Source of the DNA: Desulfobacteraceae bacterium
Lineage (GTDB): Bacteria > Desulfobacterota > Desulfobacteria > Desulfobacterales > RPRI01
Assembly (NCBI GenBank): GCA_011391695.1
Contig: JAABQB010000017.1
Span: 1-54,673, forward strand
DNA length: 54,673 bases
Direction: 5' to 3'
A model generated the notes under the pieces. It was not told the origin of the DNA, searched no databases, and worked only from the letters and a program-made list of their open reading frames with translations. The position numbers were made by a program, and so were the translations under genes. This document shows, in pieces, positions 3,270 through 43,734 of this stretch (positions within the stretch are counted from its first letter, which is position 1; each line of letters begins with the position of its first letter).

Positions 3270-3414
3270 TCAAACTTCGATGTACGATGTACGAATTTCG
3301 ATGTACGATATTCGATCTTCGATGTTCGGCTTTTAACTGATAACTGGCAACTGACTACTGTCTCCTGTTTCCCTACATTCGATGTACGATGTACGATCTT
3401 CGATGTACGGCTCT
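3270..3414. repeat. Heptamer tract T4 (inverted copy of the T1 cassette)
   Basis: On the plus strand the units are CGATGTA, CGATATT, CGATCTT (family Y), then CGGCTTTTAACTGAT, X units in reverse sense (AACTGGC, AACTGAC, TACTGTC), the spacer TCCTGTTTCCC and further Y units. Read on the minus strand this has the same order of blocks, and nearly the same sequence, as positions 60-165. The tract starts 5 nt after the stop codon of the CoA-transferase A gene. Confidence 0.88.
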
Positions 3415-4552: not shown

Positions 4553-5686
4553 AGGCTGACAAAAATTTTTTATCTGTTTTACCACGCAACTCTGCATATC
4601 CTCCGTAAGTTCCGGGTATATCGGAAGAGCTATCGTACTTGCGGCAGCATGCTCGGAAACCGGCATATCCCCGTTTCTGTAACCAAGATACGCAAAACAT
4701 TCCTGGAGATGAAGAGGAACAGGGTAGTAAATCTCTGTGCCAATCCCTGCATCGGTCAAATGATTTCTGAGTTCGTCCCTCTTTTCCGAAACCTGTATGA
4801 CGAACTGGTTATATATGTGGCGGCTCTCCCTTTCCTCGGGAAGCGTGATGTTTTCCGAAAGACCGGCTTCATTAAATAGCCTCCTGTATGTTTGAGCGTT
4901 CTTCTGCCTCGCCCTTGTCCACCCGTCAAGATACTTCAGCTTTACGGAAACAATCGCGGCCTGGAGCGCGTCAAGCCTGAAGTTGCCTCCGATATATTTG
5001 TGATAGTATTTGGGATGTGAACCGTGAGCCCTCAGAATATCGAGTTTCTCATAAAAGGTTTCCGCATTGGCAGTCACAATTCCGCCATCTCCGAATGCGC
5101 CAAGATTTTTTGAAGGGAAAAAGGAAAAACATCCGAAATGACCCATGGAACCTGCGCGCCTCCCTTTGTATTCGGAGCCGATTGCCTGGGCGGCATCCTC
5201 AATAATCAGGAGATTAAACTTTTTCGAAAGCTCAAGAAGAGGATCCATATCGGCGCACTGACCGTAGAGATGAACCGGCATTATTGCTTTCAGGGCAGAG
5301 CGCTCAGAGGCATTCATGGAACATACGGCTTCCGATATTTTTTCAGGAGAAATATTGTAAGTATCCGGATCGATATCAACAAACACCGGCTTTGCTCCGA
5401 CGCGGGCGATTGATCCCGCTGTCGCAAAAAAAGTGTATGGAGAAGTTATGACGCTGTCTCCGGGTCCTATTCCCGCGGCCATGAGTGAAATAATAAGCGC
5501 GTCCGTTCCCGACGAAACTCCAATGGCATGCTTTACGGAACAGTAAGCGGCTACCTCCTGCTCCAGTTTTTTTACATGCGGCCCGAGTATGAAATACTGG
5601 CTCTCAAAAATTTCGCCAGTTACGGCAAGAATTTCATCTTTTATCGTTTTATACTGACCTTTCAAATCAAGAAGGGGGACTTTCAT
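4550..5686 (-). CDS. DegT/DnrJ/EryC1/StrS-type sugar aminotransferase
   Basis: A 378-aa PLP enzyme of the DegT family, which transaminates nucleotide-linked keto-sugars for surface polysaccharides. Landmarks: MKVPLLDLKGQY start; GVSSGTDALIISLMAAGIGPGD; IIEDAAQAIGSEYKG; and FFPSKNLGAFGDGG, whose Lys (about residue 191) is the PLP Schiff-base residue. C-terminal YPVPLHLQECFAYLGYRNGDMPVSE is typical of WbpE/FdtB-like members. The NDP-sugar substrate is unknown. It is preceded by manC, so LPS/O-antigen or capsule synthesis is likely. The 5' leader is entirely heptamer tract T5; the only Shine-Dalgarno-like sequence, AGGA, comes from the tract itself. Confidence 0.87.
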   Translation of the reverse strand: MKVPLLDLKGQYKTIKDEILAVTGEIFESQYFILGPHVKKLEQEVAAYCSVKHAIGVSSGTDALIISLMAAGIGPGDSVITSPYTFFATAGSIARVGAKPVFVDIDPDTYNISPEKISEAVCSMNASERSALKAIMPVHLYGQCADMDPLLELSKKFNLLIIEDAAQAIGSEYKGRRAGSMGHFGCFSFFPSKNLGAFGDGGIVTANAETFYEKLDILRAHGSHPKYYHKYIGGNFRLDALQAAIVSVKLKYLDGWTRARQKNAQTYRRLFNEAGLSENITLPEERESRHIYNQFVIQVSEKRDELRNHLTDAGIGTEIYYPVPLHLQECFAYLGYRNGDMPVSEHAAASTIALPIYPELTEDMQSCVVKQIKNFCQP

Positions 5687-5687
5687 G

Positions 5688-5872
5688 GTTTCTGGTTCCT
5701 GGTCTTTGGTTTCTGGTTACTGGTTACTGATCACTGTTTCCGCTTCAGCCTTTTTTCACTGTTCACTATTCACTTTTCACTATTCACTGATCACTGGCTA
5801 CTGATCCCTGGCTACCGATCACTGGCTACTGATCCCTGACCCCTGATCACTGACCCCTGATCCCTGATCATT
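5688..5872. repeat. Heptamer tract T5 (family X)
   Basis: Read on the minus strand it starts with TGATCAGGGATCAGGGG, whose TGA is the stop codon of manC, and continues as 7-bp units (TGATCAG, GGGTCAG, TAGCCAG, TGAATAG, TGAACAG, TAACCAG, AAACCAG) to one base before the DegT start codon. It fills the whole gap between the two genes. The units drift gradually along the tract, but the 7-bp phase is largely kept. Confidence 0.9.
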
Positions 5873-12375: not shown

Positions 12376-12410
12376 GAGTTCCTCCCCTGTTAATTCGTTT
12401 TTCCCCGTAG

Positions 12411-12473
12411 TTCGTAATTCGTACTTCGAACTTCAATGTACGATATTCGATGTTCGATGTACGATATTCGGCT
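12411..12473. repeat. Heptamer tract T7 (family Y)
   Basis: Nine consecutive 7-bp units in perfect phase with variants TTCGTAA, TTCGTAC, TTCGAAC, TTCAATG, TACGATA, TTCGATG and TTCGGCT. It sits upstream of guaB, between its ribosome site and the divergent yrdC gene, so it is within the guaB leader or promoter region. Confidence 0.88.
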
Positions 12474-13324: not shown

Positions 13325-13387
13325 ATATCGTACATCGAATTTCGAAGTACGATATACGATATTCGATGTACGAACTTCGATGTACGG
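13325..13387. repeat. Heptamer tract T8 (family Y)
   Basis: Nine 7-bp units in phase, all but the last ending in CGA or CGT (ATATCGT, ACATCGA, ATTTCGA, AGTACGA, TATACGA, TATTCGA, TGTACGA, ACTTCGA, TGTACGG). It fills the gap between the convergent yrdC-like and sppA genes. No classical terminator hairpin is evident for either gene. Confidence 0.88.
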
Positions 13388-41598: not shown

Positions 41599-42165
41599 AT
41601 GGCAAACAGAAAGACTAAAATTGCATTAATATCGGTTATTGTCCTCTCAATATCCTTAACTTTCGCTCTGTTCATCGGATACCGGTATTTTTTAAAAAAA
41701 CCCGGAAAGGTTATATCCGTTATTGCTGACGGATCTACCATAACAATTGAAAAAATTCATCAGACTTCTTCCAAAAATGGAGTTGTTGAATGGAATCTTG
41801 ATGCAGGTTCCGCAACTTACAGCGCCGACAAGAAAGAAGCTTTTTTAAAGGAGTTATCCCTGACTTTTTTCACAAAAGATAACCGGAAAATCTTTCTTAC
41901 CGCCGATAACGGAATTTTAAAAACCGAAACAAGCGACATAGAAATATCCGGGAGAATAATAGTAAAGAATGATGAGTATCTGCTGAAAACAGAAAAAATC
42001 AACTATGAGCATGATAAACGCATTATTTTCTCAAGTGTTCCGGTAGAAATTTCAGGCAGATCTCTGAACCTTGTTGCCGGTTCAATGACTATAGATCTTA
42101 ACTCAAACAAAGCCGAGTTGAGCGGTAAAGTGGAAGGAATAATCGGTGATAAAATTTCATTTTAA
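41599..42165 (+). CDS. lptC: LPS export protein LptC
   Basis: A 188-aa LptC-like protein. One N-terminal transmembrane helix spans about residues 8-30 (IALISVIVLSISLTFALFIGY), followed by a periplasmic beta-jellyroll domain (VEWNLDAGSATYSADKKEAFLKELSLTFF; EISGRIIVKNDEYLLKTEKINYEHD). LptC links the LptBFG transporter to LptA. It sits in the kdsC-lptC-lptA-lptB order. Confidence 0.85.
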   Translation: MANRKTKIALISVIVLSISLTFALFIGYRYFLKKPGKVISVIADGSTITIEKIHQTSSKNGVVEWNLDAGSATYSADKKEAFLKELSLTFFTKDNRKIFLTADNGILKTETSDIEISGRIIVKNDEYLLKTEKINYEHDKRIIFSSVPVEISGRSLNLVAGSMTIDLNSNKAELSGKVEGIIGDKISF

Positions 42166-42985
42166 AAATTGGCATTGCCTTTACCTGACCCCGATAAACG
42201 GGATAAGTAAGTTTACAAGATTGTTTCTTGCCGGAAAAATGCGGGAAATAATCTCTTGCTTACTAATCTGTTGCTTTGCAGGTTCCCTTTTGTTTCATAC
42301 TGACACTGCTCTTGCAGCCAAAAAAATACAAAAGCAAAAAAAAAGCGTAGCTGCAAAAAAAACTAAGGTAACAGCCAGTACCGCCAAAAAAACACAAAAG
42401 CAAAAGAAAGATGATAGTTTAAAAAATATCCCTGCAACAACCGATGCAGCTGAAAAAAAAGAAAAGCCGAAGAAAGACGAAAGTGTAAAAAAAATCCCTG
42501 TAACTGCCGATACAGCCCCGAAAATACAAAAGCCAGAGAAAGACGAAAGTGCAAAAAAAATCCATATAACAGCAGACAGGCTGATCGCGGAAGGTGATTC
42601 AAACAATGCCGAATTCATCGGAAACGTCAGAGCAGTCCAGGAGACAACGGTTATCACATCTAATAAATTGAAGATTTTCTATAAAAAGGACTCGTCTGGT
42701 ATAGAGGCTAATCCAAAAGGGGAGGAATCGATAAAAGAGATTATTGCAACCGGAAATGTAAAAATATTGTTTGATGACAAGACTGCCGAAACCGAGCAGG
42801 CTGTTTATACCGCTGAAACCAGAATACTGGTGTTAAACAGCCCGAATTCAAAAATTACGAGCGGGAAGAATACCATATCAGGGTCAAAAATAACCTTTTT
42901 CCGGGATGATGGACGTATTAATGTTGAAGGCGGCGGAAAAAACCGTGTTGAAGCCTTCTTTGAATCTGATGGAAAAAGTTTGTAA
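42146..42985 (+). CDS. lptA: LPS transport periplasmic protein LptA with Lys-rich repeat insert
   Basis: LptA-like, 279 aa from the GTG at 42146. A strong GGAAGGA lies 7 nt before that GTG, so the gene overlaps lptC by 20 nt. An alternative ATG at 42239 directly before the signal-like MREIISCLLICCFAGSLLFH has only a weak site; both are open. After ALAAKK come about 90 residues of Lys-rich repeats (KKTQKQKKDDSLKNIPAT; KPKKDESVKKIPVTADTA; KPEKDESAKKIHITADRL). The last of these merges into the OstA/LptA domain, IHITADRLIAEGDSNNAEFIGNVRAVQETT. The repeat unit looks derived from the start of the domain. Confidence 0.85.
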   Translation: MIKFHFKNWHCLYLTPINGISKFTRLFLAGKMREIISCLLICCFAGSLLFHTDTALAAKKIQKQKKSVAAKKTKVTASTAKKTQKQKKDDSLKNIPATTDAAEKKEKPKKDESVKKIPVTADTAPKIQKPEKDESAKKIHITADRLIAEGDSNNAEFIGNVRAVQETTVITSNKLKIFYKKDSSGIEANPKGEESIKEIIATGNVKILFDDKTAETEQAVYTAETRILVLNSPNSKITSGKNTISGSKITFFRDDGRINVEGGGKNRVEAFFESDGKSL

Positions 42986-43011: not shown

Positions 43012-43734
43012 ATGGCTGAATTATTTCTTGATAGTCTGGTTAAGATATACAGGGGAAGAAAAGTAGTTGATTCCATCAGCATCAATGTCGAAAGCGGCGG
43101 GGTTTTTGGACTTCTGGGTCCAAACGGCGCTGGGAAAACGACGACCTTTTACATGACGGTAGGAATGATAAAACCTGACAAAGGCAAAGTATTCATCAAC
43201 GATGAAGAGATTACCACCGCACCAATGTACATAAGAGCCCGCAAGGGGTTGGGTTATCTGCCTCAGGAAGCTTCGATATTCAGAAAACTGACGGCGAAGC
43301 AGAATGTTATGGCAATTCTCGAATTGCAATCAAACTCTAAACAGGAACAGGAAGAGCGCGCAAACAGTCTTCTTGATGAGCTTGGCATCAGGCATCTTTC
43401 TGATCAGAAAGCGGCCCTCCTTTCAGGAGGGGAAAAAAGGCGCCTTGAAATTTCCCGCTCACTTGCCACCAATCCGAAATTTATTCTTCTGGATGAGCCT
43501 TTCGCCGGAATAGATCCTCTTGCAGTTATTGACATAAAGAACATCATAAGGCATTTAAGGAATCGCGGGATAGGGATTTTGATTTCCGATCATAATGTAA
43601 GGGAAACCCTTGGGGTCTGCGATATGGCTTTCATATTGAATGAAGGCAAGATTATTGAATCCGGACCTTCGGAAAAAATAGCATCCAGCGAAATTGCACG
43701 CCGCATATATCTTGGCGACGAATTTAAGTTATAA
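43012..43734 (+). CDS. lptB: LPS export ABC ATPase LptB
   Basis: A 240-aa ABC ATPase: Walker A GLLGPNGAGKTTTFYMTVG, Q-loop GYLPQEASIFRKLTAKQN, signature LSGGEKRRLEISRSLATNPKFILLDEPFAGIDPLAV with Walker B, and HNVRETLGVCDMAFIL. It powers LPS extraction from the inner membrane with LptFG, which are not in this window. An AGGAGG lies 14 nt before the ATG, inside a small GAGGAGCATCCTC palindrome. Confidence 0.96.
   Translation: MAELFLDSLVKIYRGRKVVDSISINVESGGVFGLLGPNGAGKTTTFYMTVGMIKPDKGKVFINDEEITTAPMYIRARKGLGYLPQEASIFRKLTAKQNVMAILELQSNSKQEQEERANSLLDELGIRHLSDQKAALLSGGEKRRLEISRSLATNPKFILLDEPFAGIDPLAVIDIKNIIRHLRNRGIGILISDHNVRETLGVCDMAFILNEGKIIESGPSEKIASSEIARRIYLGDEFKL

Follow-up and report, generated by a model that had tools for sequence, protein, structure and literature searches.

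The closest known counterpart of the protein examined here is LptA (also named YhbN), a PF03968 protein with E. coli structures available under PDB 2r19 and 8gaj. In E. coli, the N-terminal strand of LptA and the C-terminal strand of LptC associate as an antiparallel sheet (PMC5575297), and the pairing of these two strands is also described in PMC3944529. With regard to individual residues of E. coli LptA, I36, I38, E39, S40 and D41 are named in the binding of a thanatin analogue (PMC10254193, legend of Figure 6), and I36 is a site of crosslinking to LPS (PMC9972910). The low-complexity linkers of bacterial proteins, surveyed in PMC6821194, represent a second group with which the locus can be compared.

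The lptA locus and its tandem array

In the window, i.e., the whole stretch of 54,673 nucleotides that was analysed, the gene order lptC-lptA-lptB is present, with LptC and ABC_tran neighbours of lptA. The three genes lie on the + strand, namely, lptC (41599–42165; Pfam LptC, E 2.7e-19), lptA (42146–42985) and lptB (43012–43734; Pfam ABC_tran, E 2.4e-33), the last being named from gene order. The most likely start of lptA is a GTG at 42146, which overlaps lptC by 20 bases and is preceded, 7 bases upstream, by the ribosome-binding-like motif GGAAGGA (42132–42138). The genus search comprised ten genomes, including that of the window, and the other nine (G001–G009) are referred to here as the congeners. 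GTG occupies the start position in eight of the eight readable congeners, the contig of G004 beginning inside the gene, and is directly followed by ATG in G001, G002 and G008; an ATG at 42239 is present in none of the nine.

Sequence reading and the aligned congeners point to a signal peptide with a long n-region (42146–42316, + strand) and a presumed cleavage at ALA/A. The n-region differs among genomes at 42180–42235, where an additional segment (LTPING or similar), perhaps a small inserted element, is present in the window, G001, G002, G004 and G008 but not in G003, G005, G006, G007 and G009. The LptA/OstA jellyroll (PF03968) extends from 42563 to 42913 on the + strand (E 5.5e-17; residues 109–225 counted from 42239), with a score of 62.5 bits against a cut-off of 20.4. 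Its native strand 1 motif, IHITAD (42560–42577, + strand), pairs in profile alignment with IHIESD of E. coli LptA (PDB 2r19, and also 8gaj), and the sequence of the LptC-docking strand 1 is conserved in the window LptA.

TRF reports a 66-bp period at 42384–42563 (2.7 copies, score 225). Read in frame, four units of 66 bp, or 22 residues, occupy 42314–42577 in the phase AA...ITAD, and the alternative phase starting from AKKIQ covers 42317–42580 in 66-base steps. On the + strand, unit 1 (42314–42379) reads AAKKIQKQKKSVAAKKTKVTAS, units 2 (42380–42445) and 3 (42446–42511) read TAKKTQKQKKDDSLKNIPATTD and AAEKKEKPKKDESVKKIPVTAD, and unit 4 (42512–42577) reads TAPKIQKPEKDESAKKIHITAD, its 3' part being the domain's real strand 1. 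Pairwise, the units agree at 10–14 of their 22 residues and 43–52 of their 66 bases, and differ at 14 to 23 bases; the reading frame is open across the array, with a period constant at 22 residues and neither frameshift nor stop. The strand motif is TKVTAS, IPATTD and IPVTAD in units 1, 2 and 3, respectively, and only unit 4 keeps IHITAD; proline replaces the histidine of the motif in two of the three upstream units, and hydrophobic positions are altered. With KKIHITADRL, the last copy passes into the beginning of the PF03968 match.

The LptA protein shows a lag-22 self-identity of 36, whereas 20,000 residue shuffles averaged 8.7 and never exceeded 20. When all lags between 8 and 44 are considered, the runner-up among 63 LptA-domain ORFs shorter than 400 aa has a best value of 13. 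These 63 were retained from 72 distinct ORFs after leaving out nine of at least 400 aa (eight paralogs and the fusion L064), and they include one truncated paralog, L094. The signal core and strand 1 are separated by 85 residues in the window protein versus 7 to 45 in the other 62 ORFs. A search of its own genome with the array DNA detected the array only once, the strongest further match having an E of 0.09, and inspection of the unit ends by eye gave no convincing microhomology that would explain the duplication. Heptamer tandem-repeat clusters are found elsewhere in the window, at 1798–2214, 3273–3409, 5681–5870, 12406–12470 and 13341–13386.

Relatives, copy divergence and an apparent recombination tract

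In each of the nine congeners, a single segment of exactly 22 residues follows the signal peptide up to the D of strand 1, compared with the four copies in the window. This constant segment, together with the phase of the units, indicates that the unit starts at the presumed signal-peptidase site, crosses the linker and closes with β-strand 1 (IHITAD). The linker half of the segment is less similar in the more distant G005, G006, G007 and G009. At the level of the order, 213 genomes were drawn, of which 192 gave a match at E ≤1e-12, with matches listed down to about E 6e-27; outside the genus, among the matches listed, the frames of at least 245 aa in G022, G030, G044, G082, G182 and G186 carry no array, frames of 588 and 620 aa (G057 and G105) being left out of this reading. 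In a literature search on LptA tandem repeats or a disordered N-terminal extension, no title or abstract opening concerned repeats in LptA.

These results agree with most of what the initial annotation had described at 42296–42585, a span that brackets the four units. The Lys-rich tandem repeats ahead of the LptA domain are real and far above chance according to both TRF and the shuffles, and the last copy does merge into KKIHITADRL, where the PF03968 match begins. The proposed origin of the repeats, the beginning of the domain itself, gains support from a unit that includes the first strand. The insert is indeed absent from the usual protein, each congener having one unit, and the repeat number, which was to be compared among relatives and whose invariance, together with the same folded insert in all of them, would have spoken against the proposal, differs between them.

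G004 is the closest relative, with 95.8% domain identity over 143 residues. The first 39 bases of its single segment, AAKKIQKQKKGEVVKKIHITAD, fit copy 1 best (34/39, versus 31, 28 and 28 for the other copies), while its last 27 bases are identical to copy 4 (27/27, in the 42515–42580 phase), which fits an array whose two ends correspond to the old single unit. For the six pairs of copies, dN (0.19–0.45) is below dS (0.40–0.97) in every case, which hints at some constraint on the copies, whereas the domain pair between the window and G004 has a dS of 0.152 and a dN of 0.018. The synonymous excess of the copies over the domain gave Fisher p values of 0.0008, 0.002 and 0.009 for three choices of two disjoint pairs, tests that share data and comprise about 26 sites each. 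With copy dS exceeding that of the domain, either the array would predate the divergence from G004, with a later loss in the latter, or its copies would evolve more rapidly; a single recent expansion of the array is not proven.

The array also lies inside an apparent recombination tract (42055–42877), G002-like in a G007-like background, which was delimited by informative sites and has a blurred left edge, with mixed sites from about 41925. Sites matching G002 amount to 125/138 within the tract versus 101/571 outside, and the log-likelihood gain is 134 versus at most 9.8 in 30 shuffles on a coarser grid, the two parents G002 and G007 having been picked after the bins were viewed. Outside the tract, 150-base bins of the window are 81–93% identical to G007; between 42104 and 42853, where four bins are readable, identity is 85–90% with G002, 76–89% with G008 and 48–74% with G007. 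G004 has the tract and its right breakpoint, the left end falling off its contig, and its identity to the window is 95–99% in two domain bins of the tract versus 85–96% outside. Sharing of the tract may thus postdate the split of the genomes, or the tract may simply be more constrained; either way, the dS of 0.152 is a yardstick for the tract only.

The tract extends from roughly the final 36 codons of lptC through the signal peptide and the array, and takes in most of the jellyroll. Since it holds the LptC C-terminus and most of LptA, both partners of the LptC–LptA interface seem to have been imported together, which suggests that the docking end of LptC and LptA are exchangeable as one piece. 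A single unit is found in each of the donor-like relatives (G001, G002, G003 and G008), so that import by itself does not account for the array.

Possible roles of the array

We consider it probable that the array is a lineage-specific, in-frame tandem duplication that now constitutes a disordered spacer ahead of an otherwise normal LptA and contributes little or nothing functionally. The 22-residue linker and first jellyroll strand would have been multiplied in frame from one to four units, the last of which would still provide the working strand 1, while the three upstream units, in which IP or TK has replaced the IH of the strand motif, would have become a disordered periplasmic spacer rich in Lys, Asp and Glu. 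Repeat-built low-complexity linkers are probably disordered and can change in copy number. AlphaFold2, run with seven sequences, shows no secondary structure in the array (pLDDT about 25–37), but the mean pLDDT of the model is only 36.5, and this poor overall quality makes it weak evidence for disorder. The array, the single copy in nine congeners, the identity of the unit and its altered motif are established here; disorder, the spacer role and near-neutrality are inferred. The window protein shows that LptA can carry a 79-residue tandem insertion at its LptC-docking strand, made in part of copies of that very strand.

The membrane beside which LptA works and the cargo that it handles are both anionic, and the initial annotation had suggested that a highly basic tether might bind LPS phosphate or the membrane. 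The Lys-rich array would then bind LPS phosphates or anionic membrane lipid, and help LptA either to remain near the inner membrane or to load LPS. A basic character stands, with 24 Lys and 11 Asp/Glu in the 79 residues before KKIHITADR and a net charge of +13, but the wording 'highly basic' is overstated: the charge is concentrated in unit 1 (+8, devoid of acidic residues), and units 2 to 4 reach only +3, +2 and +2, with 12 acidic residues when strand 1 is included. The linker of G004, the closest relative, is also basic and indeed the most basic of all (+4), whereas five of the nine congener linkers have a net charge of 0 and the remaining three carry +2, +1 and −2. Over the 63 ORFs, net charge in the 13 residues preceding strand 1 has a median of −1 (range −4 to +4), with 50 ORFs at 0 or below, which makes a conserved electrostatic role of the linker unlikely, save possibly in this small lineage. 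No amphipathic or hydrophobic anchor was seen by eye either. With most of the charge in unit 1, linkers of relatives mostly neutral or acidic, and the strand motif lost, binding to LPS phosphate or to the membrane is unsupported, and we regard the tether as an unlikely explanation. Lys-rich regions have also been tied to nucleic-acid binding in the linker survey (PMC6821194), a function that is unlikely for this array because LptA is periplasmic.

It could also be envisaged that the additional copies of strand 1 are still strands. Their partner would be either LptC or the jellyroll at its open N-terminal edge, and such pairing would cap or multiply the docking site. The unit includes exactly the LptC-docking strand, its 22-residue period has been kept without frameshift or stop, and dN is below dS between copies, all of which would fit; yet the change of IHITAD to TKVTAS, IPATTD and IPVTAD places a proline, a poor residue in a paired strand, in two of three copies, and the low-confidence model has no strand before residue 82, so that we hold such pairing to be very unlikely. 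A more elaborate and still less probable version is that the copies act as decoy or spare docking strands on a flexible leash, able to occupy the open edge of the jellyroll, and thus regulate bridge assembly or shield the site from strand-mimicking peptides such as thanatin. Finally, the assemblies are drafts, that of the window (2.8 Mb in 116 contigs) as well as those of the congeners, which raises the question of an assembly artefact, with the array being wrong in the window or arrays being collapsed in the relatives. The contig of G004 begins just upstream of the segment, and collapse is conceivable there for nearly identical copies. However, the copies in the window differ at too many bases to be the product of a read-overlap error, the frame is open throughout, and collapse would be needed in all nine congeners; an artefact is hardly credible.

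Comparison with known systems

The same genome encodes a second OstA-domain protein with a linker array, the paralog L086 (G000:C28, 538–2430; PF03968, E 5.5e-20), in which TRF detects 3.0 copies of a 102-bp period with 90% match. Counted by a motif defined after the sequences were read, its linker has 3 (own genome), 2, 1, 3, 1, 0, 0 and 0 units in the eight readable genomes, G003 (contig ending early) and G004 (no paralog obtained) being left out. TRF was run on three of these eight, the own paralog included, and reported no array in those of G001 and G008, whose units are therefore defined by the motif alone. L086 has a long C-terminal region, for which its G001 ortholog gives only a sub-threshold match to FlgT_C (E 0.014). 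An assignment of the second match in each congener (515–631 aa) to LptD was dropped, since two tested representatives gave no LptD barrel match at E ≤0.1 and the LptD match of the own genome lies elsewhere (G000:C10). In a separate case, L017/L064 (G044:C80), the LptA domain is part of a single 543-residue frame, the C-terminal region of which resembles by eye that of the paralog.

L086 and the window LptA both combine an OstA domain with an adjacent linker of tandem units, and in L086 this linker is rich in Lys, Glu and Pro and varies in unit number. The two differ in that the unit of L086 comprises 34 residues of different sequence, and its linker follows the domain and leads to the long C-terminal region. 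Linkers beside OstA domains thus change in unit number within one genus, and the recurrence of linker duplication on a different sequence favours a spacer over a specific ligand.

With regard to the low-complexity linkers of other bacterial proteins (PMC6821194), the array shares with them its Lys-rich composition and its construction from repeats, but its unit contains a piece of a folded domain, strand 1, and its host is a component of the LPS bridge. With E. coli LptA, the window protein has in common the domain, the gene order, the IHI-x-x-D motif and a signal-like N-terminus, and it differs from the other LptA proteins surveyed in placing 85 residues of tandem units ahead of strand 1, where the other 62 ORFs have 7 to 45 residues.
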